30,487 nucleotides of DNA. Source: Streptomyces sp. RKND-216. GTDB lineage: Bacteria; Actinomycetota; Actinomycetes; Streptomycetales; Streptomycetaceae. The stretch covers positions 1 to 30,487 of the forward strand of contig NZ_SSBQ01000001.1 in assembly GCF_004795255.1 (NCBI RefSeq), given 5' to 3'. Below, piece by piece: positions 2,946 through 29,755 of the stretch; positions within the stretch are counted from its first letter, which is position 1, and each line of letters begins with the position of its first letter. Made by a program: the position numbers and the translations under genes. The notes below the pieces were generated by a model. That model saw only the letters and a program-made list of their open reading frames with translations. It ran no database searches and was not told where the DNA came from.

Positions 2946-3249
2946 CGCGTCGCTCCTCCCCGTTGATCGACGTGGACCCCAGCCTGCACCAAAACGGCAG
3001 GTGAAAGGCTTGCCCACCGTGGATGGGCAAGCTATTTGCTGCCGCGCTTTGCTCGCGGGCAAGCCTTCTGCGGAGCTGGGCAAGCCCCTTCGCCGGTGCT
3101 CCGGGCCGCGCCCGGCCGTCGGTGTGGCCGTGACCGGTCACGCCGTCGAATACCGCGAACGGTGACCGATCACCGGGGCGGTCCGGTGACCGGTCACGGC
3201 GCCGACCGATCGGTCATGACCGGCGGGGCGTGACCGATGCGGTGACCGG
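2946..3249. promoter_or_regulatory. Repeat-rich non-coding region, candidate operator or origin
   Basis: About 300 bases without a credible gene, between the stop of the small gene ending at 3250 and the start at 2945. It must hold the promoter of the 2945-1285 operon. It contains two unrelated repeat families: GGGCAAGC elements (3008-3086) and GTGACCGGTCAC palindromes (3130-3253), both listed separately. Such density in a region adjoining a replication-type gene suggests a control region for copy number, or a replication site. Confidence 0.6.
3008..3086. repeat. GGGCAAGC repeats with one perfect inverted pair
   Basis: GCTTGCCCA (3008-3016) and TGGGCAAGC (3024-3032) form a perfect 9-bp inverted repeat with a 7-nt spacer. 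Two more GGGCAAGCC copies are at 3057-3065 and 3078-3086. They lie 60-140 bp upstream of the start codon at 2945, where an operator would be expected. Confidence 0.6.
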
Positions 3250-3253
3250 TCAC
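3130..3253. repeat. Array of GTGACCGGTCAC palindromes
   Basis: Perfect 12-bp palindromes GTGACCGGTCAC occur at 3130-3141, 3186-3197 and 3242-3253, with a one-base variant GTGACCGATCAC at 3162-3173. Related palindromes GACCGATCGGTC (3204-3215) and CGGTCATGACCG (3211-3222) and a half site GTGACCGAT (3230-3238) lie between. Start-to-start distances are 32, 24 and 56 bp. The last copy overlaps the stop codon of the upstream gene. This is the pattern of a multi-site binding region for a dimeric DNA-binding protein. Confidence 0.75.
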
Positions 3254-3561
3254 GCGGCTTCGGTCATGACGTCGACCAGCTGCCGAAGGCGCAGGAGTGC
3301 GTCGGCCACCTCCGGCCGGTCATCGGCCGCCGGGTCCTCGAGGACGGCGGCCGCCACCGCGAGCACCCCGGCCAGACTCCCGCCGGCGAGCCCGGGGATC
3401 GCGCGCAGCACGGCGTCGAACAGGGCCGCGTTCCACTGGCCGCGGGCGAGGTGGTCGGCGGCCGCGGTCTCCTCGGGCATCGGGTGCCAGGTGCCGGCGG
3501 TGTGAGCGGTGTGCAGCGCGGCGGCATCGCACGCCAGCAGCTCGGGGTCGAGGTGGGTCAC
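3250..3561 (-). CDS. Small hypothetical protein
   Basis: About 103 residues if started at GTG 3561, 8 nt after the stop of the preceding gene. The frame is open to a GTG at 3615 (121 residues), and a TTG at 3573 overlaps the preceding stop; none of the three has a strong ribosome binding site, so translation is probably coupled and the start is uncertain. The protein is helical and Ala/Leu-rich with an acidic stretch (LEDPAADDRPEVADALLRL). No family is recognised and there are no Cys motifs or membrane segments. It forms a two-gene unit with the gene at 3570-3860. Confidence 0.55.
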   Translation of the reverse strand: MTHLDPELLACDAAALHTAHTAGTWHPMPEETAAADHLARGQWNAALFDAVLRAIPGLAGGSLAGVLAVAAAVLEDPAADDRPEVADALLRLRQLVDVMTEAA

Positions 3562-7792: not shown

Positions 7793-9187
7793 TCACAGGC
7801 CTGTGGCCATGTCGACGAACCGGCTGTAGTGGCCCTGAAAGGCAGTGGTGATGGTCGCGGTGGGGCCGTTCCGATGCTTGGAAACGATCATGTCGGCCTC
7901 GCCCGCGCGTGAGGACTCCCGCTCGTAGACGTCTTCACGGTGCAGCAGAACGATCATGTCCGCGTCCTGCTCCAGCGCGCCGCTCTCACGCAGGTCCGAG
8001 GTCTGAGGCTTCTTGTCGGTGCGCTGCTCGGGGTTGCGGTTGAGCTGAGAGATGGCGACGACCGGGACCTGAAGTTCTTTGGCCATCAGCTTCATCTGCC
8101 GCGACATGTCGGAGACTTCCTGCTGGCGGCTTTCTACGCGGCGGGAGCCGCCGTGCTGCATCAGCTGCAGGTAGTCGACGATGACGAGGTCCAGGCCCTG
8201 GCGCTGCTTGAGTCGTCGGGCTTTGGTACGGATGACCAGAGCGTTCAGTTCCGGGGAGTCGTCCAGGAACAGAGGCGAGGCGTCGATCTTGGTCTTCGCG
8301 CGGGCCAGGCGCTTCCAGCCTTCCTCATCGACCTTGCCAGAGCGGATGTGGTGCAGCGGCACGGACCCCTCTGCTGACAGCAACCGCTGCTGCAGCTCCT
8401 TGCGGCCCATCTCCAGGGAGAAGAAAACAGCCGGGCGGCCGTGTTTGATGCTGCATCCGCGGGCCCAGTCGAGCGCCAGCGTGGACTTACCAACGGAGGG
8501 CCGGGCGGCGATGATGATGAGCTGGCCGGGCTGCAAGCCCTCGGTGAGGGAGTCCAGATCGGTGAAGCCGGTCGGGACGCCGGTCAGTTCGCCGGGCTTG
8601 CGGCGGCCGGCGGCCTCAATGTCATCGATGGTGTCGGCGATGCCGTCGGTGACGTGGGTGAGGGTGTCCTCCACCCGGCGCTGCGCGACGGAGTAGACCT
8701 CGCGCTCGGCGTCCTGAACCCGGTCCTCAACGTCCCCGTCGCGGGTGTAGCCGCTCTGGATGATGCGGGTGCCAGCCTCGATCAGGCGGCGGTCGACGGC
8801 CGCGTCGGCGACGATCTGTGCGTAGGCTGCGGCGGTCGCCGCGGTGGGCACGACTTCCACCAGCTGGTGCAGGTAACCAGGGCCGCCCGCGCGGTCAAGG
8901 TCACCGGAGCTGAGCAAAGCGGCCTTCAGGGTAATCGGGTCAACGGGCTCGCCCTGGGCGTACAGGGCGAGGATGTGGCTGTAGATCGTCTGGTGGGCGG
9001 GGCGGTAGAAGTCGTGTGCGCCAGCCGGGCCGCGCAGGACTTCGGTCACGTCGTCGATAGCGTCGGTGGACAGCAGCATGCCGCCCAAGACGCACTGCTC
9101 GGCCTCCAGCTCCTGAGGCCGGACGCGTTCGAAGCCGCGAGCGGCGACCGGGTCATCGTCGTGGTTGGACTGGGTGGGTACGCTCAT
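7793..9187 (-). CDS. dnaB: Replicative DNA helicase DnaB
   Basis: A 464-residue hexameric 5'-3' replicative helicase. The N-terminal domain (PQELEAEQCVLGGMLL from about residue 24; FYRPAHQTIYSHILALY at 60-76) binds primase in the family. The RecA-like C-terminal domain has Walker A ARPSVGKST (228-236), SLEM (257-260), Walker B LVIVDYLQLM (334-343), ISQLNR (379-384), the DLRESGALEQDAD run (398-410) and KHRNGPT (437-443) with the arginine finger. Length and order are those of bacterial DnaB; no intein is present. The ATG at 9187 has GGAG 8 nt upstream. It follows the initiator-like gene and precedes the polymerase-like gene, an arrangement that points to loading at an origin carried on this element. 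Confidence 0.95.
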   Translation of the reverse strand: MSVPTQSNHDDDPVAARGFERVRPQELEAEQCVLGGMLLSTDAIDDVTEVLRGPAGAHDFYRPAHQTIYSHILALYAQGEPVDPITLKAALLSSGDLDRAGGPGYLHQLVEVVPTAATAAAYAQIVADAAVDRRLIEAGTRIIQSGYTRDGDVEDRVQDAEREVYSVAQRRVEDTLTHVTDGIADTIDDIEAAGRRKPGELTGVPTGFTDLDSLTEGLQPGQLIIIAARPSVGKSTLALDWARGCSIKHGRPAVFFSLEMGRKELQQRLLSAEGSVPLHHIRSGKVDEEGWKRLARAKTKIDASPLFLDDSPELNALVIRTKARRLKQRQGLDLVIVDYLQLMQHGGSRRVESRQQEVSDMSRQMKLMAKELQVPVVAISQLNRNPEQRTDKKPQTSDLRESGALEQDADMIVLLHREDVYERESSRAGEADMIVSKHRNGPTATITTAFQGHYSRFVDMATGL

Positions 9188-9263
9188 CAGTGGATCTCCG
9201 TTCGTTGGGATTCGCTGTGGCGGCCGGGCCGGGCAAGGTCTCCGGCCGCCACACCTGTGCGGG

Positions 9264-10349
9264 TCAGGCGCTGGGTTCCAATGCCTTACGACAGGCACAC
9301 GGCCTCAGCGGGTTGAGCGGCAGAAACGTGGTCGGGTCGTGCGCGAATCCCGAGCCGTGGCACTCGTCGCAGTTCCGGGTCGCCGCACTGATCGTGGCGG
9401 GGTGGTCGCCAGTAGGCGGGGTGTCGGGCAGGCGCTTGAGCTGATGGCGGTAGATCGCACCCACGTCGAAGACACGATCCGGATCGCACCTGCGTGCAAG
9501 GTGGCGCCGCAACGCGGGCAGCGTCCACATGCCGCCCTCCAGTGCTTCCATCACCAGCGGTGCCAGGTCCAGCGCGTCGTGCCGCCCCGGCTTTCCCGGC
9601 AGCGAGCTGAGCATCGACAGGACATCGTCCAGACGCTCGTCGTCGGTAGGAGAGGCCGGAGCCGTCGGCCCAACGGTCCTCTGCCCTGCGCCTGAGCTAC
9701 GGGGCAGGGGCACCGGGCCGGGCGCGTTGCTGTTCGGCGTAGCCGTCTCTCTCGCTCCCTCCGCCCGCGGGCTGTCGCCGATGTGACGGCTGTGACCAGA
9801 GAGAGAGTCATTAAGAGAGTCCTTATAGGAGGAAGCCTGGTTTCCCGAATCCGGATCCTCCGAATCCGGGGAACCCGATTCCTGGTTCCCCGATTCCTGG
9901 AAACCCGTAATCGGTGCGACCTGCGGCTTTGCGCTCTTCGGCTGCTTCGAGGGCTGCTCCTTGGGAGTGGAGCGCGACTGCTTGGTGCTCCCGCGCTTGC
10001 GGTCCTGCGGATCCGAGCGGTGCTCAGGGGGGACGGGCTGGGCGTAGATGCGGACCACCCACTCGTGGCGGCCTCCGGCGCCCGTCGCCAGCTCGCGCAC
10101 CAGGTAGCCGGCGGCCTCCAGCTCATAGGAAGCGCCGTACAGGGCGTCGCGGCCCTCCATGCGCTTCTTCCCGGCCCGCTTGGCCCGCTTGATCATGTCG
10201 GTGATGCTGTCGAGCTCGGCCCCCGGCGGCCGTCGCAGCCACCGAGTCAGCAGGCCCAGGGCGCGGCAGGACAAGTCATCGTCGATGATCAGGTTGTCCA
10301 GCGTCGTCCACGTCGGGCCGACCGGGTCGTGACCTCGTTCCCACCTCAT
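9264..10349 (-). CDS. Replication initiator-like protein (winged helix plus zinc tail)
   Basis: A 361-residue protein directly upstream of dnaB. Residues 1-105 look like a winged-helix domain (LDNLIIDDDLSCRALGLLTR, then DMIKRAKRAGKKRMEGRDAL and YELEAAGYLVRE), as in phage and plasmid initiator/primosomal proteins of the lambda O or DnaD kind. Residues 110-240 are a low-complexity linker with pentapeptide repeats (FQESG, NQESG, SPDSE, DPDSG). Residues 245-310 are a helical domain (DDVLSMLSSLPGK, LRRHLARRCDPDRVF), and the tail has CDECHGSGF and CACR, a likely zinc site. The ATG at 10349 has GGGGGGA 5 nt upstream. The pentapeptide repeats are encoded by 15-bp iterons. Role inferred from architecture and position. 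Confidence 0.8.
   Translation of the reverse strand: MRWERGHDPVGPTWTTLDNLIIDDDLSCRALGLLTRWLRRPPGAELDSITDMIKRAKRAGKKRMEGRDALYGASYELEAAGYLVRELATGAGGRHEWVVRIYAQPVPPEHRSDPQDRKRGSTKQSRSTPKEQPSKQPKSAKPQVAPITGFQESGNQESGSPDSEDPDSGNQASSYKDSLNDSLSGHSRHIGDSPRAEGARETATPNSNAPGPVPLPRSSGAGQRTVGPTAPASPTDDERLDDVLSMLSSLPGKPGRHDALDLAPLVMEALEGGMWTLPALRRHLARRCDPDRVFDVGAIYRHQLKRLPDTPPTGDHPATISAATRNCDECHGSGFAHDPTTFLPLNPLRPCACRKALEPSA
9786..9835. other. A+T-rich patch beside the iterons, candidate unwinding element
   Basis: Positions 9791-9835 are about 55% A+T against roughly 30% around them. The stretch includes CATTAAGAGAG and CCTTATAGG and purine-rich GAGAGAG. It lies inside the linker of the initiator-like gene, immediately downstream (in gene sense) of the iterons, the same order as in lambda ori. 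Confidence 0.5.
9844..9903. repeat. Four 15-bp iterons inside the initiator-like gene, candidate origin
   Basis: Repeats of consensus CCCGAWTCCKGG start at 9844, 9859, 9874 and 9889, exactly 15 bp apart: CCCGAATCCGGA, TCCGAATCCGGG, CCCGATTCCTGG, CCCGATTCCTGG. A weak fifth (CCCGTAATCGG) begins at 9904. They encode a five-residue repeat in a linker, so protein constraint is low while DNA identity is high. Together with the adjacent A+T-rich patch and the downstream dnaB this is a candidate origin of replication. Confidence 0.65.
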
Positions 10350-10961: not shown

Positions 10962-11738
10962 TCAGCTCCCGCTGGCGGCGATGCGTCGCCGGTCGGGGGA
11001 CCATCGCCACCCCGTACGGCGCAGGGCATCCGCTCGGGCGAGCAGCACCTCGATGCGAGCAGCGCGCTCCTCGAGGGCATGGTGCTCGGGGCGGGCCGTT
11101 GACTGCTGCGGGTGCTTGCGGTAGATCTCGCCGGGCTTCTCCTGCATCCAGCCGTCGGCGACGGCCTCGCAGGCCAGCATCACGGCGACGTCCTCGGTGG
11201 CGGGGAGAGCCGGCCACCCGCCCACGATGTGCAGCAGCTCGGTGTAGACGGTCATCGACGTGCCTACGACCTGGAGCTGATCCGCCCGGAGGCCGTCGGC
11301 GAGCACGCCTGGTGGCAGCTGCCCCGGGGGCGGATCGTTGGGGCCGGGCCGCATCGTGCCGTCGGGCAGCAGATCGATCGCCGGTGACACGCACCAGCCG
11401 AGATGCGGCTGGGCGATGAGCAGGTCGATGTCGCGCGCGAGCGCCTCGTCATCCGGCAGGAGGTCGTCGGCATCGAGACACCGCACCAGTTGGCCCGTGA
11501 CGCGGTGCAGAGCGAGGTTGCGCGCGCGGGCTGCGCCACCGTGCCGACCTACGCCAGTGGAGATCCACGAGGCGACGGGCAGGGGGTCGAGCGGCTGGCC
11601 GGTCAGTCCGTCCTCCTGCACGACCCACTGCAGAGACCAGCCGGCCGGAAGTACCTGATTCTCCAACGTCGCGCGCACCTCGTGCAGATGTGCGTCGCCG
11701 CCCTCGTAGACCGGGGTGATGATCGAAATCGTAGGCAT
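10962..11738 (-). CDS. Family 2 glycosyltransferase
   Basis: A 258-residue GT-A fold enzyme. The N-terminus ISIITPVYEGG is the nucleotide-binding start of GT2 enzymes; QEDG (41-44), GGAARARNLAL (67-77) and CLDADDLL (87-94) follow, the last holding the DxD-type metal and nucleotide-sugar site. Residues 130-200 should bind the acceptor. No membrane segment or signal peptide is seen, so it is cytosolic. Donor and acceptor are unknown. The ATG at 11738 shares one base with the stop of the GntR gene (TGATG), so the pair is translationally coupled. The enzyme is an unusual cargo for a plasmid backbone and could modify a secondary metabolite, a peptide or a protein. Confidence 0.85.
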   Translation of the reverse strand: MPTISIITPVYEGGDAHLHEVRATLENQVLPAGWSLQWVVQEDGLTGQPLDPLPVASWISTGVGRHGGAARARNLALHRVTGQLVRCLDADDLLPDDEALARDIDLLIAQPHLGWCVSPAIDLLPDGTMRPGPNDPPPGQLPPGVLADGLRADQLQVVGTSMTVYTELLHIVGGWPALPATEDVAVMLACEAVADGWMQEKPGEIYRKHPQQSTARPEHHALEERAARIEVLLARADALRRTGWRWSPDRRRIAASGS

Positions 11739-12532
11739 CAGGACCAGCGCTCCAGAGGGGTCACGAAGACGAGCTTGGCCCGGTCGGCGGGGAACGGAAG
11801 AGCGGCCACCTCGACCGCGCGTCCGGATGTCGCGTAGGTGATCTTGAGGTCCCTCAGCACGGGGACTCCCGGGGGGATGTCCTGCTCCGCGACCTCTTCG
11901 TCGGTCGGCATGCTCGCGGTGACATGGTCCTCGATACGGTCAACCTCAATCCCGAGGGTGTGCAGCTGGTGCATGGTGCCGCCTGGCCACGGGTCACGGC
12001 TCTCGTCGAACAACTCGGGGTTACGGGAGGCCAGCTCGTACGGCAGGTACGACACGGAACACGAAGCACCCGCGCCCTTGCGGTGGCGGCGGGTCCGAGT
12101 GCGACGCAACACCTTCGCTCCTGGCTCGATCTCAAGAATCTCCGCGACCCAGTCGGGAGCGTCGACCACATCGTGGCGGGCGGTGTCCTCGTACACGGTG
12201 GTCAAGGAGATGCCTGACTCCCACTCAGCGACACCACAGCTGCGACGCTCCGCCTCCGGGCGCAGGACGAGATCCTTCTCCTCCTGGTAGCGCGTGTTGC
12301 GCCTCACGGTTGGTGCCGGCGGCACGCGGACCCATGTCTTCCCCCCACCCTTGCCGGACAGCAGCCCCTGCTCCTTCAAGTGCTGCACTGCGCGGGAAGC
12401 CGTGTTGCGGTGCACCCCAAACCGTTCAGCCAGTTCGGGCACCGTCGGGAATTGATCCCCGGGCGCCAGCTCGGTTTCGACGAGCCGCGCCATCGCCGCG
12501 GCGAGCTCCTGGTACTTCCCTGCAACAGCCAT
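11738..12532 (-). CDS. GntR/HutC-family transcriptional regulator
   Basis: A 264-residue regulator. The winged helix lies at about 5-70 with FPTVPELAERFGVHRNTASR and LKEQGLLSGKGG, typical GntR. Residues 95-260 match the UTRA effector domain (VLRRTRTRRHR; YLPYELASRNPELF; EDHVTASMPTDEE; PPGVPVLRDLKITYATSGRAVEVAALPFPADR). Such regulators are common on Streptomyces conjugative plasmids, where members of the KorSA/TraR type repress transfer genes. This gene is divergent from the transfer operon starting at 12786, so control of that operon and of itself is plausible. The ATG at 12532 lacks a good ribosome binding site; the message may be near-leaderless. Confidence 0.9.
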   Translation of the reverse strand: MAVAGKYQELAAAMARLVETELAPGDQFPTVPELAERFGVHRNTASRAVQHLKEQGLLSGKGGGKTWVRVPPAPTVRRNTRYQEEKDLVLRPEAERRSCGVAEWESGISLTTVYEDTARHDVVDAPDWVAEILEIEPGAKVLRRTRTRRHRKGAGASCSVSYLPYELASRNPELFDESRDPWPGGTMHQLHTLGIEVDRIEDHVTASMPTDEEVAEQDIPPGVPVLRDLKITYATSGRAVEVAALPFPADRAKLVFVTPLERWS

Positions 12533-13310: not shown

Positions 13311-13693
13311 GCATCAACGTCACGCGTATCCGCCGACAGGCCTTAGTGACCACCTGGTCCTGCACCGGCCTGATCTCCTTCGGCATCGCCTGGGCCCTGG
13401 GCCTGCAGGCCTCCTGGTGGCAGCGCGCGCTGATCGCGCTCCCCCTCGCCGTCCTGGCCGTCCTCGACGCCCGTGGCGCCGGACCGGTCATGGACGCCCG
13501 CATCGCCCTGACCCGCCTGATCGCCGACATCGGCTGGATGCAGATCCCCCTCGCGGTCGCCGGCGGCGCCTGGCTCGCCGGGCTCACCCCCGACGTCGGC
13601 ACCCGCCTCGTCCTCGCCGCCGTCCTCGCGACGGTCGCCGGCCTCTTCCACCTCGCCCCGTCCGCCCCCGCCCCGGCTGGAGGTAACAGCTGA
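13307..13693 (+). CDS. Small integral membrane protein
   Basis: A 128-residue protein with about four hydrophobic segments: roughly 13-31, 38-53, 76-92 and 100-116. The N-terminus is basic (INVTRIRRQ). It overlaps the preceding gene (ATGA) and the next one (TGATG), so all three are coupled. Membrane proteins of this size stand beside spd genes of Streptomyces plasmids, where they assist plasmid spread between hyphal compartments. The role here is inferred from that context. Confidence 0.75.
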   Translation: MSINVTRIRRQALVTTWSCTGLISFGIAWALGLQASWWQRALIALPLAVLAVLDARGAGPVMDARIALTRLIADIGWMQIPLAVAGGAWLAGLTPDVGTRLVLAAVLATVAGLFHLAPSAPAPAGGNS

Positions 13694-15312
13694 TGAGCAT
13701 CACGGAGTTCCGCGCGGCGAAGCGCGACGACCGGGCCGCCGAGCGGGAGCAGGACCGCGCCGATCGCCTCGCCGCCGAGCAGGCGAAGCTGGAGCGGGAT
13801 CGGCTGGCCGCCGAGCAGAAGCTCGAGCGGGAGCGGCTCGCCCAGGAGGCCGAGGACAAGCGCCGGGAGCAGGACCGCGCCGACCGGCAGGCCGCCGAAC
13901 AGGCGCAGCGCGAGCGGGAAGAGGCCGACCGCAAGGCCCGCGCGCAGGCGGAGAAGGAGCGCAAGCGCGAGGCCGACCGCAAGCGCCGGGAGCGGCGCGA
14001 GCGCCGGGCGGCGTTCATCAAGTCGGTGCCGGGCTGGGTCAGTGAGCACCTGGACCTCGCGGCCGCGCTCGCGGTGATGGCGTGCAGCATCGTGCCCGCC
14101 CTCATCTCGCAGGCCGGGTCGCTGTCGTCGACCGGCATCGCCGGCGAAGACGCGATGGGCTGGATGGGCGGCCTGCTGATCGCCCTGCTCCCGGTAATGC
14201 TGGAGTGCTCCGCATGGGCGGCGACCGCCGGCGAAGCCAAGGCCATGAAGCAGCGGCGCTCGCCGTGGCCGTACCGGGTCGCCATCTACAGCTTCGCCGG
14301 GATGGCCGCGTGGGTGAACTACCTGCACGGCGACCACGTCGGCGGCGAGGAGTACGGGCTGCTGCTCGGCTCCGTCCTCGCAGCCTCCTCCGTCATCCCG
14401 ATCGCGGTGTGGCAGCTGGTGCAGGTCGGCCGGCATGGCGAGTACAAGGCGCAGCGCAAGGCTGACCGCGAGGCCAAGTCGGAACTGAAGGCGTGGCGGG
14501 AGCGGTGCAAGAAGCTCTACCCCGACGTGTGGCACACCGCCAAGCAGCTTCGGGCGATCGCCGGGCCGGGTGAGCTGACCGAGCTGGCCGCGTGGCAGGC
14601 CGCGTACGCCGTGCACGAGGGTGCCGGCGACGGCGAGATGGACCCGGAGCTGATGGCGCTGCTCTCCGCTGATCTGCTGGAGCTGCGGGTGGACGCGGAG
14701 GGCCGCCTGGCCGATGTCCTGAACCGGCTGCGCGCCGTCCGCACCGACCGCCTGAAGGCGTCCGCCACGCTCACCGGAAAGCCGTTCGCGGGCACCGGTG
14801 AGACGTCCGCTGACGCGTCCGTGAAGGTGGCCGCAAACGGGGGCACAACCCCCCCCACACGATCTCCGGAAACGTCCGTGAGCGGCCTCCTGGACCACCT
14901 GGGGCGGCCCCTCACGCAGAGTGCATCGTCGCAGGCTGCCCCGTCTGTCCCCCCGTCCGCGCGCGCCCGCGAAACCGCGCCCGCGCGTACACGTAAGCCG
15001 CGCCCGGCCCCGCCCGTGCGGACGCTGTCCAAGGGCGCGAAGAACGCCGCGAAGGAGACCGCGAAGCGGTCCGCCACGGCCGCAGCCGCGGACGAGAAGA
15101 AGGCCCTGGAGGAGTGGGCGCTGACCCGCCTGCGGACGTCCGGCGAGGTGACCTGGCAGGAGATCCGCGACGAGGCCCACGCACGCCGGAAGACGACCGA
15201 CAAGAAGGCCGTTGCCCCGGGCCGCTCCTGGGCCTACGACCGGCGCACCGCAGCCCTCGAGGCCCACGGCAAGGGCGGGCTGCACGCGGTCCGTACCGGT
15301 GAGGCCGCGTGA
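13693..15312 (+). CDS. DUF2637/SpdB-like membrane protein
   Basis: A 539-residue protein. Residues 1-108 are a highly charged Arg/Glu/Ala-rich coiled coil. Four membrane segments follow at about 120-142, 157-179, 194-212 and 221-246, with the motif-like PVMLECSAWAATAGEAKAM and AAWVNYLHG. Residues 250-350 are charged and helical, then comes a Thr/Ser/Pro-rich linker, and the C-terminal 80 residues contain a possible winged helix (VTWQEIRDEAHARRKTTDK, SWAYDRRTAAL). The DUF2637 core is found in actinobacterial plasmid proteins often labelled SpdB, thought to work with the TraB translocase in intramycelial spread. Start ATG overlaps the preceding stop. Here the gene is two genes ahead of the translocase. 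Confidence 0.8.
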   Translation: MSITEFRAAKRDDRAAEREQDRADRLAAEQAKLERDRLAAEQKLERERLAQEAEDKRREQDRADRQAAEQAQREREEADRKARAQAEKERKREADRKRRERRERRAAFIKSVPGWVSEHLDLAAALAVMACSIVPALISQAGSLSSTGIAGEDAMGWMGGLLIALLPVMLECSAWAATAGEAKAMKQRRSPWPYRVAIYSFAGMAAWVNYLHGDHVGGEEYGLLLGSVLAASSVIPIAVWQLVQVGRHGEYKAQRKADREAKSELKAWRERCKKLYPDVWHTAKQLRAIAGPGELTELAAWQAAYAVHEGAGDGEMDPELMALLSADLLELRVDAEGRLADVLNRLRAVRTDRLKASATLTGKPFAGTGETSADASVKVAANGGTTPPTRSPETSVSGLLDHLGRPLTQSASSQAAPSVPPSARARETAPARTRKPRPAPPVRTLSKGAKNAAKETAKRSATAAAADEKKALEEWALTRLRTSGEVTWQEIRDEAHARRKTTDKKAVAPGRSWAYDRRTAALEAHGKGGLHAVRTGEAA

Positions 15313-15677
15313 TGCCCCGCTTCAGCATCCGCTACGACGACCCGGACGGGGACCGGTACGGCAAGCCGACGTTCGGCTGGCGTACCGCCCCCGAAGGGCT
15401 CGCCACGAAGCGCCAGCTGCGGGCCCGCGGCCTGCGCCCCGGCGGACAGCCGGCCGCCGCACAACTCGGCTGGCGCTCCGGCGGCGAGGACAAGTTCGCC
15501 GCCCTGTACCGCATCGACCAGGCCAAGCCCGTCCGCCCGATGACCCCGGCGAAGTGGGCCGCGATCACCGCGGCGCTGCGCGCCCGCCGCGTCTGCCCGG
15601 ACTGCGGGCGCGAGCAGGACTACCAGATCCCGCGCCGGTTCGGCGCCTGCAACGACTGCTACACCACCGCCGCCTGA
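15312..15677 (+). CDS. RRQRL-motif zinc-binding protein
   Basis: A 121-residue protein of a family common next to transfer genes in actinobacteria. The signature ATKRQLRARGLRPGGQ lies at 31-46, with KRQLR at 33-37. LYRIDQAKPVRPMTPAKWAA follows, and a zinc ribbon is formed by Cys95/Cys98 and Cys113/Cys116 (RRVCPDCGREQDYQ, GACNDC). The ATG at 15312 shares a base with the preceding stop; a GTG one codon earlier also overlaps it. Function is unknown; position between the SpdB-like gene and the translocase suggests a part in transfer. Confidence 0.85.
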   Translation: MPRFSIRYDDPDGDRYGKPTFGWRTAPEGLATKRQLRARGLRPGGQPAAAQLGWRSGGEDKFAALYRIDQAKPVRPMTPAKWAAITAALRARRVCPDCGREQDYQIPRRFGACNDCYTTAA

Positions 15678-15795: not shown

Positions 15796-18360
15796 ATGAC
15801 CGAGATTCAGGAGCACGTGAGCACCGCCCCGGCCGACGGCGACCTGCTGCGCGAGGCCGCCGAGCTGGTGGTCTCCACCCAGTTCGGCTCCCCCTCGATG
15901 CTTCAGCGCAAGCTGCGCATCGGCTTCGAGGCCGCGACCCGCGTCATGGAAGCCCTGGAGCACCTCGAGGTCGTCGGCCCCGCCAAGGGCTCCAAGGCCC
16001 GCGACGTCCTGGTCCGCCACGTCGCCGACCTCGGACCGCACTTCGCCGGTGTCGACTACGACCAGGCCAACGTCGACCCCGCCGACGGCGCGGACGTCAT
16101 TGAGCTGCCCAGGCCCGCCAAGACCGACGACCCGGGCGAGGTGATCGAGGGCACCGTCCTCCCCGCCCACGACGACTCCGGCTGGGACCTGCCCGAAGAC
16201 GCTGAAGGCGACCGGCCCTGGATCGACCCCCGGCTCAAGACCCGCGAAGGCCGCGCCAACCACCGCTCCTACCTCGCCACCCGCACCCGCCGCGGCGCCC
16301 GCAAGTTCGCCGCCCGGCAGACCACCCCGCACGGCATCGTGCCCGCCGCCCTCCGCGGCGAGCGCCGCGCCCGCCAGTGGGTCATCGGCATCGAGGGCAT
16401 GAAGGCCCGCGCCGACATGGCCCTCGCCCTGACCATGACCAAGGAAGCGAAGAAGGAAGCCCGCCGCGCCGGCGTCGCCATCTTGGACCGCAAGAAGAAG
16501 CACGCCGCCGCGGCCCAGTCCCAGCAGGAAGCCGCCAAGGCCGTCATGGTCGCCGGCGCCGCGAAGAAGAAGGCGCAGAAGCTCGTCGCCGGGCGCGCCG
16601 CCGTGATGTACGGGCCCTTCGCCCTCGTCGACGCCGCCGCCCTCGGCTACGCCGACATCTGGGGCCTGCTCGGAGCCCTGGTCCTCAACCTCGGTGTCGC
16701 CGCCCGCGCCGGGAAGGACGTGGAGCTAACCGAGGAGCAGCTGGAGCGCCTGGAGCAGATCGAGGCCGGCGTACCCCAGCGCGTCGAGCCCGGCATGACC
16801 CCGCGCATGTTCGAGCAGATGATGCGCCAGGCCCTGACCGAGGACCTCAGCGCGAGCCTGTCCGCGCTGCGCGTCGACCCCCACCCGTGGGGCTTCGAGG
16901 TCCACGTCTGGCTGGACCGCATGACCCCGGAGAAAATCTCCAAGGGCCTGGACACCCTGGAGGCCTGCCTGCCCGGCGTGCGCACCGGCAGCATCCTGCT
17001 CCAGCAGTCCGCCGCCTCCCGCAACGAGTGCGTCATCCGCGTCCCCGGCGAGAACCAGTGGCAGGCCGTGCCCGAACTGCCCTACCGCGCACCCCACTCC
17101 GTCTCCACCGCCCAGCTGCACACCGCGCAGATCGGCGCCGACATGTCCGGCCGCCCGCTGGCCCTGCCGCTGTGCCGCACCAACGCCAACATGGTCGGCA
17201 AGTCCCGGTCCGGCAAGTCGACGCTGCTGCGCGGCCTGACCGACGCGCTGACCGCGACCACCGACCAGATCGTCATCGGCATCGACCTCGGCGGCGGCGG
17301 CAGCGGCTTCGGCGCGATGCGGCGCTGCATGCACGCGGTGGCCACCACCCCGCAGGAAGCGCACATGGTGCTGTCCTGGGCGCTCGCGGTCGGCAAGGGA
17401 CGCACCGGCCTGTTCGACCAGCTCGGCATGGTGGAGAACTGGGAGACCCGCCCGGACCGGCCCGGCATCAAGATCGAGGTGGACGAGTTCCCGGCGCTCG
17501 TGCGCGCCAGCCGCCAGGGCTACCTCGACGAAGAAGGCCGCAAGGTCACCTGGGACCTGGACGGCATGCTCGCCGAAATGGCCATCACCACCGCCAAGTC
17601 GGACGTGACGATGGTGATCGCCGGGCAGGGCGTCACCAAGGAGAAGATCAAGGAAAACACCTGGGTCGTCGAGCTGCCCGTTCAGGTCATGGCCGCCTGC
17701 GACACCGACGACATCACCCAGATCATGGGGGCCGGAGCGATGGCCGAGGGATGGCGCCCCGACCGCCTCATCCCCGCCATGGGCGACCAGATCAACGACG
17801 CCTCCGTCGCCTACGTCATGGCCGGCGCCACCTACTGCGAGCCCATCCCCTACCGCGGCTCCATCGCCTCCCACGACGAACTGCGCCGCCGCGCCGAGGA
17901 ACGCCTGACCGCCGGCCTGGTCGAGCTGGACGCCGAATCCGCCGCGCTGTCCTCCATCACCCTGGAGCAGATCATGCAGGCCTGCGCCGAGCGGCACGCG
18001 ACCGGCGCCCAGGACGAGGCCGCCGACAGTGTCCCGGCCCTGATCGCCACCATCCGCCAGGTCTTCGCCGACGCCGGCGACCCGGCCGGCATGTCCCAGG
18101 AGGACCTGGCCGACGCGCTCGGCACCGCCGACCCGCAGCGCTGGGCCCTCGAGGAGTTCGACGCCGACCAGGCCGACGAGGAGGACGGCGCCGACGGCCG
18201 CGTCCCGGCCCGCACCGACGCGCTGCGCAAGGCCATCACCGCCGTGCTCCAGCCGACCGGGCGCAGCTGGCCGCTGGAGAAGTACAGCAAGAAGCACCCG
18301 CGCGGCTACCGACTGCGCGACCTCAAGGCCATCACCGGCGAGCCCCTCGACGAGGCCTGA
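15796..18360 (+). CDS. FtsK/TraB-type DNA translocase with N-terminal gamma-like domain
   Basis: An 854-residue ATP-driven double-stranded DNA pump, the probable conjugation motor. Residues 15-72 resemble the FtsK gamma winged helix ([33 protein letters not shown]), which in FtsK itself lies at the C-terminus. Residues 145-265 are basic and coiled; 269-300 is a hydrophobic membrane-like segment. The motor domain has Walker [10 protein letters not shown] (468-476), Walker [12 protein letters not shown] (558-568) and [23 protein letters not shown] matching the FtsK region after the motor core. Residues 745-780 and 805-850 contain further possible winged helices. Streptomyces TraB moves plasmid DNA as a duplex and binds repeats called TRS at clt. 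The dyad directly downstream is a candidate. The ATG at 15796 follows GAGGAGG by about 10 nt. Confidence 0.9.
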
Positions 18361-18381
18361 TCCGGCCGCCGGAATCGTAAT

Positions 18382-18529
18382 GGAACCGCAGGTCAGCGAG
18401 GTGGAACCGGCCCGGAACCGGGCCGGAACCCCACCCCGCGACCGGAACCCGGTTCCGGTCCCACACCCCCGGTTCCCCCACCGTTCCGGCCCGCTGACCT
18501 GCGGTTCCCCCGGGTTCCACCCCGGTTCC
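18382..18529. repeat. GGAACC/GGTTCC dyad array, candidate transfer (clt) site
   Basis: Five GGAACC (18382, 18403, 18414, 18425, 18444) are followed by five GGTTCC (18451, 18471, 18503, 18513, 18524). The centre is ACCGGAACC-C-GGTTCCGGT (18441-18459). The outer arms GGAACCGCAGGTCAGCG (18382-18398) and its exact complement (18492-18508) are a perfect 17-bp inverted repeat. The array starts 22 bp after the translocase stop and fills the gap to the next gene. Known clt sites of Streptomyces plasmids are non-coding clusters of 8-bp repeats near traB. Confidence 0.75.
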
Positions 18530-18557
18530 AGCCCTCCCCGCGCCCTCTGGAGTGATC

Positions 18558-19508
18558 ATGAACCACGACCCGATCCGGGCCAACGACCCCGGCTCCGGCC
18601 GCCACCTGGTGATCGCCGCCCGGAAGTTCCGCTACATCGAGCAAGACCCCGCCCACGAGCTGCGCACCGTGTGGATCGCCCACGACGTCGTCTGCCCGGC
18701 CTGCCTCGCCGACACCAACCTCACCCTGACCTTCCACGAGGCCGTCGACCCCTCCGTGCAGGTCACCTGCCCCACCGGCCACACCTGGGGCGAGATGGCC
18801 ATCGATGTCGGCCACTTCACCGCCTACACCCGCCTGGTCTCCTGGTGCGACCCCGACCCCGACACCCGGTGGATCACCGACGCCGGATTCGGCGAGGAGC
18901 CCCCGCCGCCGATCGACTACGCCGGCGACCTGAAGGCCGGCTACACCTACGCCGCCAAATTCGCCTCCCGCCGCGCCAAGACCCGCACCCGGGCCGCGAT
19001 CCGCCGCCCCGTCAAGAAGGCGAAGAAGCGCGCGATCAACGTCACCTGCGCCCCACTCGCCGCCGCGCTGCGCACCGCCTGGACGTGGCAGGCCGGCGGA
19101 ATCCCCCAGGACCCGCCGCCGCCCGCCCCGAAGCAGCCAGCCAAGGAGCAAGGGCCGAAGGTGCCGTCGTACGCGAAGTACCGCAAGGCCTACGGCATCC
19201 CCGCCCCGCAGCGCGGCCCGCGCTGCCTGGTGTGCAACGACTCCCGGCGCATCCCCGGCACCGCCATCTCCTGCACCGAGTGCTCCCCCACGGCCGCCGG
19301 CGCCCCGAACCCGGCCGGGCAGGACGCGACGCCCCCCGGCGGCGGTGTCGTCAACCGCGGCGGCGTCGTCGGGGACGTCGTCAACAACGGCGCCAGTGCC
19401 CACGCCAGCCGCCTCACCGACCAGATCGGCCGCGCCACCGCAGGGCGAGGACACAGCAGCGTCGCCAACACCGGCCGTATCGGCAACGTCCAGAACAACC
19501 CCAACTGA
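18558..19508 (+). CDS. Hypothetical protein with two putative zinc sites
   Basis: A 316-residue protein without a recognised family. The N-terminal 110 residues are a beta-rich domain with Cys46/Cys49 and Cys71 (VVCPACLAD, VTCPTGHTW). Residues 125-165 are very basic (ASRRAKTRTRAAIRRPVKK), likely to touch nucleic acid or membrane. Residues 185-200 are Pro-rich, and a second Cys4 site follows at 223/226/239/242 (CLVCNDSR, SCTEC). The last 75 residues are Gly/Asn-rich (VVNRGGVVGDVVNNG). ATG at 18558 has GGAG 5 nt upstream; a GTG at 18552 is in frame. It follows the candidate clt site. Confidence 0.8.
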   Translation: MNHDPIRANDPGSGRHLVIAARKFRYIEQDPAHELRTVWIAHDVVCPACLADTNLTLTFHEAVDPSVQVTCPTGHTWGEMAIDVGHFTAYTRLVSWCDPDPDTRWITDAGFGEEPPPPIDYAGDLKAGYTYAAKFASRRAKTRTRAAIRRPVKKAKKRAINVTCAPLAAALRTAWTWQAGGIPQDPPPPAPKQPAKEQGPKVPSYAKYRKAYGIPAPQRGPRCLVCNDSRRIPGTAISCTECSPTAAGAPNPAGQDATPPGGGVVNRGGVVGDVVNNGASAHASRLTDQIGRATAGRGHSSVANTGRIGNVQNNPN

Positions 19509-28557: not shown

Positions 28558-29667
28558 ATGAAGCTCACCATCGACCACACCAAGCTCGCCGACACCGTCG
28601 CCTTCGCCACCAGCGCACTCCCCGCCCGCCCGCCCGTGCCCGTCCTCGCCGCCGTCAAGCTCACCGCCACGGACGGCGAACTGTCCGTCGCGGCGTACGA
28701 CTACGAGCTCGCCGCGACCGCCACCGCGACCGCCGACGTCCACAACCACGGCCAGGCCCTCGTCTCCGGTCGTCTCCTGGCCGACATCACCCGCACGATC
28801 CGGCAGGACGTCCACCTCACCACCACCGACACCCAGGCCATCCTCGAGGCTGGCACCGCGAACTTCACCCTGCCGCTGCTGCCGCTGGAGGAGTACCCGA
28901 CCCAGCCCGACCTCCCCGCCCCGACCGGCACCGTCTCTGGTCGACTCCTGGCCGACGCCATCGCCCAAGTCACCCCGGCCGTCTCCCGCGACGACACCCT
29001 CCCCGTCCTGACCGGCATCCAGATCAGTCTCGACGGCACCGCACTCACCCTGGCCGCCACCGACCGCTACCGCTTCGCCGTCCGCACCATCGACTGGAAG
29101 CCCACCGACGGCGACCACCCCGTGCACCGCGTCCTCGCGCCCGCCAAGGCCCTCCAGGACATCGCCAAGGGCATGGCGGCCGCCGACGGCGACGTCACCC
29201 TCGCCCTCCCCGAGGGCGACCACACCATCGGCCTGACCACCGGCCAGCACCGCACCACCCTGCGCACCCTCGAGGGCAAGCTGCCCGACTACGACGCGCT
29301 GTTCCCCACCGAGTTCACCGCGACCGCCATCGTCGACACCGACGCCCTCACGGCCGCCATCAAGCGCGTCGCCCTGGTCGCGGACCGCAATACCCCCGTA
29401 AGCCTCTCCTTCACCAACGGCAGCGTCACCGCACAGGCCGGCACCACCGACGACGCCCAAGCCATCGACACCACTGACGCCACCCACACCGGCGACGACA
29501 TCGACATCGCCTTCAACCCCACCCTTCTCCTGGACGGCCTCAAGGCCGTCGGAACCGACCGCGTCCAGCTCGACTTCACCACCCCGGTCAAACCCGCGCT
29601 GCTCCACGGCGAGGGCGCCCCCGACAGGGCGCTGCGCTACCTCCTCATGCCCGTACGCACCAGCTGA
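28558..29667 (+). CDS. dnaN: DNA polymerase III sliding clamp (beta subunit)
   Basis: A 369-residue beta clamp of normal length. The dimeric ring holds polymerase on DNA. The N-terminus MKLTIDHTKLADTVAFATSA is typical; the domain linkers show LPLEEYPTQPDLP and LPVLTGIQISLDG, then LAATDRYRFAVRTIDW. FNPTLLLDGLKAVG, FTTPVKPALL and the C-terminal end YLLMPVRTS form the usual domain III and the hydrophobic pocket for clamp-binding peptides. ATG at 28558 has GAGGAG 6 nt upstream. A clamp on a mobile element suggests a replisome partly independent of the host, perhaps with the polymerase-like protein of the left operon. Confidence 0.93.
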   Translation: MKLTIDHTKLADTVAFATSALPARPPVPVLAAVKLTATDGELSVAAYDYELAATATATADVHNHGQALVSGRLLADITRTIRQDVHLTTTDTQAILEAGTANFTLPLLPLEEYPTQPDLPAPTGTVSGRLLADAIAQVTPAVSRDDTLPVLTGIQISLDGTALTLAATDRYRFAVRTIDWKPTDGDHPVHRVLAPAKALQDIAKGMAAADGDVTLALPEGDHTIGLTTGQHRTTLRTLEGKLPDYDALFPTEFTATAIVDTDALTAAIKRVALVADRNTPVSLSFTNGSVTAQAGTTDDAQAIDTTDATHTGDDIDIAFNPTLLLDGLKAVGTDRVQLDFTTPVKPALLHGEGAPDRALRYLLMPVRTS

Positions 29668-29715: not shown

Positions 29716-29755
29716 CCGGAAAGTGAGGTCAGAAATTTCTGACCTCACTTTCCGG
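29716..29755. repeat. 40-bp perfect palindrome, candidate parS copy 1
   Basis: All 40 bases are self-complementary, centred between 29735 and 29736. The inner 22 bp (29725-29746, core AGGTCAGAAATTTCTGACCT) recur exactly at 30080-30101, inside the next gene. The core is A+T-rich in a G+C-rich setting. It may also strengthen the terminator as RNA. Confidence 0.8.

Follow-up and report, generated by a model that had tools for sequence, protein, structure and literature searches.

The closest described counterparts of the element studied here are the clt sites of plasmids that transfer DNA by an FtsK-type motor. In the cited passages TraB is an FtsK-like hexamer that binds clt and moves double-stranded DNA (PMC3583192, PMC4170104, PMC3218068, PMC12857230), and 8-bp repeats are mentioned (PMC3583192, PMC4170104, PMC12857230); the TraB of pSVH1 is given as hexameric, its C-terminal winged helix recognising the repeated 8-bp motifs (PMC3583192). 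According to the passages on pWTY27, its clt of 175 bp lies with 16 bp inside traA and with 159 bp next to it, has direct and inverted repeats and is footprinted by the translocase (PMC3583192). Here we analysed a GGAACC/GGTTCC dyad of Streptomyces sp. RKND-216, located in the 197-base gap behind the gene of an FtsK/TraB-type DNA translocase of 854 residues (15796..18360, forward strand). The stretch analysed, 30,487 bases and called the window below, is the entire contig C1 of a two-contig, 5.61-Mb genome, and is most likely a plasmid. Judging from sequence comparison, the dyad is probably the plasmid's own clt-type transfer-initiation site, where the C-terminal domain of the adjacent translocase would recognise GGAACC and the array would gather its subunits.

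Like the clt of pSVH1, the dyad is made of a short unit repeated on a plasmid, and the reader proposed for it is the C-terminal winged-helix domain of an FtsK-type translocase; it differs in being a phased mirror array of six plus six sites with a constant pair of boxes. The unit is presumably also unlike that of pSVH1, as the initial annotation had held. With the clt of pWTY27 it shares, as far as the cited passages go, the position at the 3′ end of the translocase gene or in the adjacent gap and the presence of both direct and inverted repeats; the pWTY27 units are TGACACC and CCCGCCC, those passages describe no six plus six layout, and the pWTY27 site reaches into the gene, whereas the first site of the window dyad lies 10 bases past the stop codon (PMC3583192).

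Architecture of the Dyad

The array consists of five GGAACC followed by five GGTTCC, as the initial annotation had stated, and every forward copy precedes the reverse copies. The exact forward sites are at 18382..18387, 18403..18408, 18414..18419, 18425..18430 and 18444..18449, and the exact reverse sites at 18451..18456, 18471..18476, 18503..18508, 18513..18518 and 18524..18529 (minus strand). Two further sites, the degenerate GGAATC at 18371..18376 (plus strand) and CGTTCC at 18482..18487 (GGAACG on the minus strand, with a different sixth base), were counted as well, because they keep the same spacing and are of the GGAAC type in homologues. The five plus five array first noted thus stands for its exact copies, and with the near-matches becomes six forward and six reverse sites, a cluster of twelve short direct and inverted repeats; the ten exact copies span 148 bases and all twelve sites 159 bp. 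The outer arms, 18382-18398 and 18492-18508, are perfect 17-base complements as had been reported, and can be extended to 41 nt at 80%. Each of these arms is a GGAACC repeat beside a separately conserved box, which had been overlooked: GCAGGTCAG on the left (18388..18396, plus strand) and CTGACCTGC on the right (18494..18502, minus strand). The sixth forward site forms the left half of a core palindrome, GACCGGAACC C GGTTCCGGTC, which was first delimited as a 19-bp centre (18441-18459) and extends one base pair further, to 21 bases (18440..18460).

Start-to-start distances are 11, 21, 11, 11 and 19 bases among the forward sites and 20, 11, 21, 10 and 11 among the reverse ones. With a period of 10.5 bp, phase vectors of 0.93 (forward set) and 0.98 (reverse set) were obtained, against 0.68-0.77 at 10.0 and 11.0; the pooled sets gave 0.05, so that each set is phased and the two are mutually out of phase.

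As a word, GGAACC is not over-represented in the window, with 21 occurrences against 15.6 ± 3.8 expected (11 of 100 shuffles reach 21). It is its clustering that stands out: ten of the 21 lie in the dyad, where the rate found elsewhere in the window predicts 0.054 (Poisson P ~5e-20). In the local 380 bases the commonest 6-mer occurs 10 times, compared with at most 7 in 60 shuffles, and the chance of the forward-before-reverse order for five plus five copies is 0.008. Pairs of GGAACC with a gap of 4-6 bases number four in the dyad and 11 on the 5.58-Mb chromosome, and the reversed pattern gave five genome-wide. A whole-genome search with the dyad DNA found no second copy. There is one place on the chromosome (G000:C2, 5053237-5053260) with three GGAACC in a row.

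The orientation of short motifs also steers the hexameric motors SpoIIIE, through SRS, and FtsK, through KOPS. Those motifs are scattered over the chromosome and not clustered. In contrast to them, the box shows no enrichment and no strand bias on the host chromosome. A role of the box as a chromosomal FtsK polarity motif was discarded: genome-wide, GCAGGTCAG occurs 53 times forward and 56 times reverse, and the reversed pattern 68 and 51 times. The chromosome has three inverted box pairs spaced 153-155 bp; these have no repeat array, by eye lie inside apparent copies of a transposase gene, and were considered unrelated.

Conservation in Close Loci

A DNA search of the plasmid collection gave five records, and tblastn with the translocase gave 94, of which six cover at least 80%; scanning genome contigs gave 18 loci, 12 of them close. 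After removal of duplicates (L007, which repeats L011 within one record; L037-L040, L090 and L093-L095, which are the window itself or equal in length to contigs included before), the close set comprised 19 loci including the window. The dyad lies directly behind the translocase gene in all 19. The initial annotation had named homologous elements with the same translocase but without the repeat as evidence against a transfer site, and there are none among these close loci.

Eighteen loci were scored on a single 12-slot layout, L021 being left out because its left box reads GCAGGGCAG, even if its sequence still shows the layout. Counted from the midpoint between the boxes, the forward slots are at -71, -61, -39, -28, -17 and +2 and the reverse slots at +8, +28, +39, +61, +71 and +82, and the starts of GCAGGTCAG and CTGACCTGC are 104-106 bp apart in the close loci. 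An exact GGAAC was found in 181 of 216 slots, and 209 had at most one mismatch (within 2.6 bases of the slot), against 0 of 180 in an opposite-strand control at ten of the slots; these draws are not independent, considering that the slots were derived from the scored loci and that some loci were found through the dyad DNA itself. In L021 the reading frame of the translocase is disrupted close to the 3′ end and the left box is changed, with the array retained. In the record NZ_CP022546.1, which carries L007 and L011, much of the transfer region is doubled and several identical protein accessions occur in both copies; a smaller plasmid assembled with an overlap could explain this.

The dyad could also act in the transcript, as a long hairpin serving as terminator or regulator. 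The fold of the RNA was calculated at -103.5 kcal/mol (z -5.5 against shuffles), and the pairing of the spacers was somewhat higher than expected (43% versus 32%). Over the 18 loci, however, 251 of 310 pairs were complementary in the sites and 161 of 162 in the boxes, compared with 229 of 536 in the spacers; complementarity is concentrated in sites and boxes, as expected for protein sites. Compensatory changes did not support the hairpin either, the box changes of L021 and L026 being uncompensated, and there was no Rfam match in the window and no terminator-like site in 18250-18700. An RNA element thus appears extremely improbable.

The Translocase and the Repeat Unit

The protein proposed to read the repeats has a motor of the FtsK/SpoIIIE fold, its AlphaFold model matching the FtsK motor domain (6t8b, E 1e-11), and the Pfam FtsK_SpoIIIE model stayed below its cut-off in 17 of the 18 members of the translocase group that were tested. 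Residues 16-73 (15841..16014, plus strand) form an FtsK_gamma-like N-terminal domain (Pfam 4.2e-19; PDB 2j5o, 4e-05), which is limited to some relatives, since no Pfam gamma match was found in L005, L006, L011, L023, L026 and L027. At the other end, a winged-helix-like domain covers approximately residues 745-854 (18028..18357, plus strand); its winged-helix match is weak, and the best Foldseek hit of the C-terminal model against the PDB had an E of 0.78.

Covariation between the repeat and this domain, which the initial annotation had proposed to look for, is suggested by the close loci. The sixth base of the exact sites is mostly C in six loci (the window, L003, L019, L022, L023 and L026); in the remaining 12 it is most often A. 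A short [PR]RGY wing (...PRGYRL in the window) accompanies GGAACC, and a [VT][KR]GY wing longer by 3-5 residues accompanies GGAACA, a match that holds in all 18 loci. In a tree of the motor region, L010, L020 and L025 fall inside the GGAACC clade (support 100/100) and yet have the other wing together with the other unit. It is suggestive, although not proof, that the correspondence of wing type and unit type ties the C-terminal domain to the repeat.

That the unit follows the translocase clade bears on two further explanations. One is that the repeats are iterons of a replication origin, bound by the plasmid initiator. The precedent is in pWTY27, whose iterons, in the passages cited, are GGGAAC-containing repeats, five GTGGGAAC and five TTCCCAC in a long inverted repeat that adjoins and is bound by RepA (PMC3583192). 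In the window, by contrast, 8-9 kb separate the dyad from the recognised replication genes (7.8-10.3 kb), that of the replicative helicase (7793-9298) being 9 kb off, and the unit follows the translocase clade. The gene downstream of the dyad (18558-19508), which has no Pfam match, may be an initiator; a better candidate is the open reading frame (ORF) beside the helicase gene (9264-10349), which has internal repeats (9844-9912) in locally low-GC DNA. An origin at the dyad is consequently held to be unlikely. The second explanation is a partition centromere bound by a ParB-like protein of the plasmid. It would be typical of a centromere to have phased repeats in a non-coding gap. Of the 18 ORFs of the window scanned with Pfam, several of which may not be real genes, none matched ParA or ParB, and a centromere does not account for the unit following the translocase clade; we regard it as very unlikely.

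Distant Relatives

The same frame was found with other units. Translocases of the pFP1 type are 26-28% identical to that of the window, and the gap behind their genes has a mirror array of CTCTAC with the same boxes. The plasmids of this type (NC_006912, pSLUN2 and others) resemble the window in gene order, boxes and mirror array, and differ in the unit, CTCTAC and not GGAACC. From GCAGGTC to GACCTGC there are 106-107 bp in the pFP1 type and 106-108 bp in the close loci; outside the left box, the CTCTAC unit of the pFP1 type points the opposite way.

Among 42 distant translocase loci, many of them mutually related, an inverted box pair was detected in 15, one box in 13 and none in 14; this count excludes L065 (a second copy within its genome), later loci from genomes that had already contributed one, the short L100, and both the phage and the Micromonospora locus. 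L062, counted with a single box, has a pair if GACCAGC is allowed. Single 7-base matches occurred behind 28 of the 42 genes and in 40 of 210 upstream windows, and they prove little because such matches are common in DNA this rich in GC. Correctly oriented pairs, on the other hand, were absent from all 120 upstream windows (20 loci). The distant pairs are spaced 85-86 or 97 bp.

Behind translocases at 22-25% identity there can be mirror arrays built from other units, the boxes and their position being unchanged. The unit differs by clade: GTGACG or a close variant in the 97-bp frame, and TGCTCA/TGCTCG and CTGCTAG in the 85-86-bp frame. With the best unit of each locus, 17 of 20 loci lacked exact copies on the wrong side, one such copy being present in each of L012, L043 and L049, a count that is biased because the unit was chosen for forward copies on the left and reverse copies on the right. 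Within the TGCTC class, six plus six sites are present in L046 and L091 at no more than one mismatch, and five to six per half in L051 and L053. L052 has a box pair and no clear array, and some loci without a pair have repeats of their own (GACAAC in L103, CCCGTCT in L061, CCCGTCC in L063, CGGTAG in L036). Neither the phage Coruscant nor the one Micromonospora FtsK gene examined had such an array 3′ of the gene, and in pIJ101 (8.8 kb) single boxes are present, with no comparable box pair among the positions listed.

Two groups were observed besides these. L061, L063, L055 and L060 have mostly repeats of the CCGTC[TC] type, some of which lie within the translocase gene at its 3′ end; their box is partial, GCAGGT. 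In L096-L099 and L109 the translocases end in ...[KR]PT[AVG]YR, and most of the gaps contain one box, on the right (GTGACCTGC), with repeats that are less clear.

The distant loci also weigh on a regulatory explanation, in which the repeats would be an operator through which a GntR protein, or the protein encoded by the next gene, controls the downstream operon or the transfer genes. The next gene (18558..19508, plus strand, 316 residues) starts 28 bases past the last site of the dyad, has homologues by tblastn in 16 of the 18 other close loci, and there is a GntR regulator in the cluster. Against this, the dyad is kept in L026, and the boxes with CTCTAC repeats in the pFP1 type, although in neither of them was a homologue of the downstream gene detected by tblastn. 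L024 gave no tblastn match either, and the first residues of its downstream gene look alike by eye. Twelve phased sites over 159 bp are more than usual operators have, an operator leaves the relation between unit and translocase clade unexplained, and no sigma-70-like promoter was matched in 18250-18700. Promoters of Streptomyces often lack the sigma-70 consensus. Taken together, an operator seems quite improbable.

Proposed Function

A clt/TRS-type site therefore remains the reading to which iterons, operator, centromere and RNA structure are inferior in fit. What favours it is that the repeat accompanies the translocase throughout the close loci and changes its unit by clade together with the wing. 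Several observations weigh against it. The match of wing and unit amounts to two changes on the best tree and to one on supported branches, that is, one or two independent changes for the 18 loci; a tree in which the GGAACC loci are kept together is not rejected (p-AU 0.113), so covariation alone is not significant. Moreover, a single exchange could carry wing and array together, because they are adjacent in the DNA. Part of the distant relatives also have no clear array, as was seen behind the translocase genes of L102, L104, L105 and L107.

Regarding the mechanism of a clt-type site, the C-terminal winged-helix-like domain would bind the repeated GGAACC unit, and the array would collect translocase subunits on the plasmid. 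If one unit is read by each wing, the six phased units could align the subunits of one ring. One hexamer may be nucleated per half array, so the dyad possibly seats two hexamers facing opposite ways. Since the start would be a single internal point on uncut DNA, two arms need moving, and both arms of the plasmid could be moved from there. For SpoIIIE it has been proposed, in the passages cited, that the two arms of the circular chromosome move through separate channels (PMC4423119). Two motors at the dyad might converge or diverge.

A second factor, or another protein surface, might read the constant GCAGGTCA box pair. The N-terminal gamma domain was tried as box reader and rejected, considering that L005, L006, L011, L023 and L027 keep both boxes without a Pfam gamma match. 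The RRQRL-type protein encoded upstream was rejected as reader as well, tblastn finding no homologue of it in L005, L006, L013 and L026-L030.

The spacings of the box pair, 85-86, 97 and 106-108 bp start to start, differ in steps of about one helical turn. We tentatively suggest a more general arrangement, which is possible but on balance doubtful. It would be a modular start site for the transfer of double-stranded DNA in actinobacteria: the constant pair GCAGGTC/GACCTGC would frame an exchangeable, translocase-specific unit, present about six times per half, with one hexamer per half and two motors reeling in both arms of the uncut plasmid. As part of the same tentative arrangement, a specificity cassette made of the translocase gene's 3′ end and the array next to it would be exchangeable between elements.

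Repeat clusters as translocase sites are known, and what appears to be new is a mirror frame of six plus six sites in which the box pair stays constant and the units can be exchanged. No description of the dyad or the box was found in the open literature, a weak negative given that subscription papers were mostly uncovered. The frame offers a readable signature of a likely transfer site for a translocase group that mostly falls under the Pfam FtsK_SpoIIIE cut-off. Its host plasmids are often typed as non-mobilizable by PLSDB (3 of the 5 DNA matches and 74 of the 94 tblastn matches), a typing that PLSDB likewise gives to the conjugative pIJ101. If the six plus six arrangement is true, the choice between one motor and two on opposite arms becomes directly testable for an intact double-stranded plasmid, and clade-specific units would give a DNA-recognition code readable against the C-terminus of the translocase.

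Gene Neighbourhood and Other Features of the Contig

The plasmid nature of the contig agrees with its gene order, which matches that of annotated Streptomyces and Kitasatospora plasmids: a GntR-family regulator with a UTRA domain (11738..12532, minus strand; Pfam), small ORFs, a DUF2637-type protein (13693..15312, plus strand; 53% to the L003 gene annotated DUF2637), a small RRQRL-type zinc-binding protein (15309..15677, plus strand; 41-64% to homologues in 14 loci) and the FtsK-like translocase. The RRQRL-type protein adjoins the translocase in many of the relatives, not in all. Elsewhere the contig encodes a DnaB helicase and the beta clamp of a DNA polymerase III. The contig ends were searched for an exact overlap or a terminal inverted repeat of 16-2000 bases, and none was found.

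The ORF at 9264-10349 (minus strand), which adjoins dnaB, matches a family of phage DNA-binding proteins. Inside it, 9780-9912 has GAATCC-type repeats (TRF 9844-9912) and a duplicated stretch similar to AGAGAGTCATTA, in locally low-GC DNA; this region is a candidate for the replication origin of the plasmid. The beta sliding clamp (28558-29667) has all three of its Pfam domains, on a contig as small as this one, and just past its gene there is a perfect, loopless 20-bp inverted repeat, CCGGAAAGTGAGGTCAGAAA/TTTCTGACCTCACTTTCCGG (29716-29755). Finally, several inverted repeats of the GTGACCGGTCAC type were observed within about 140 bp at 3129-3270.
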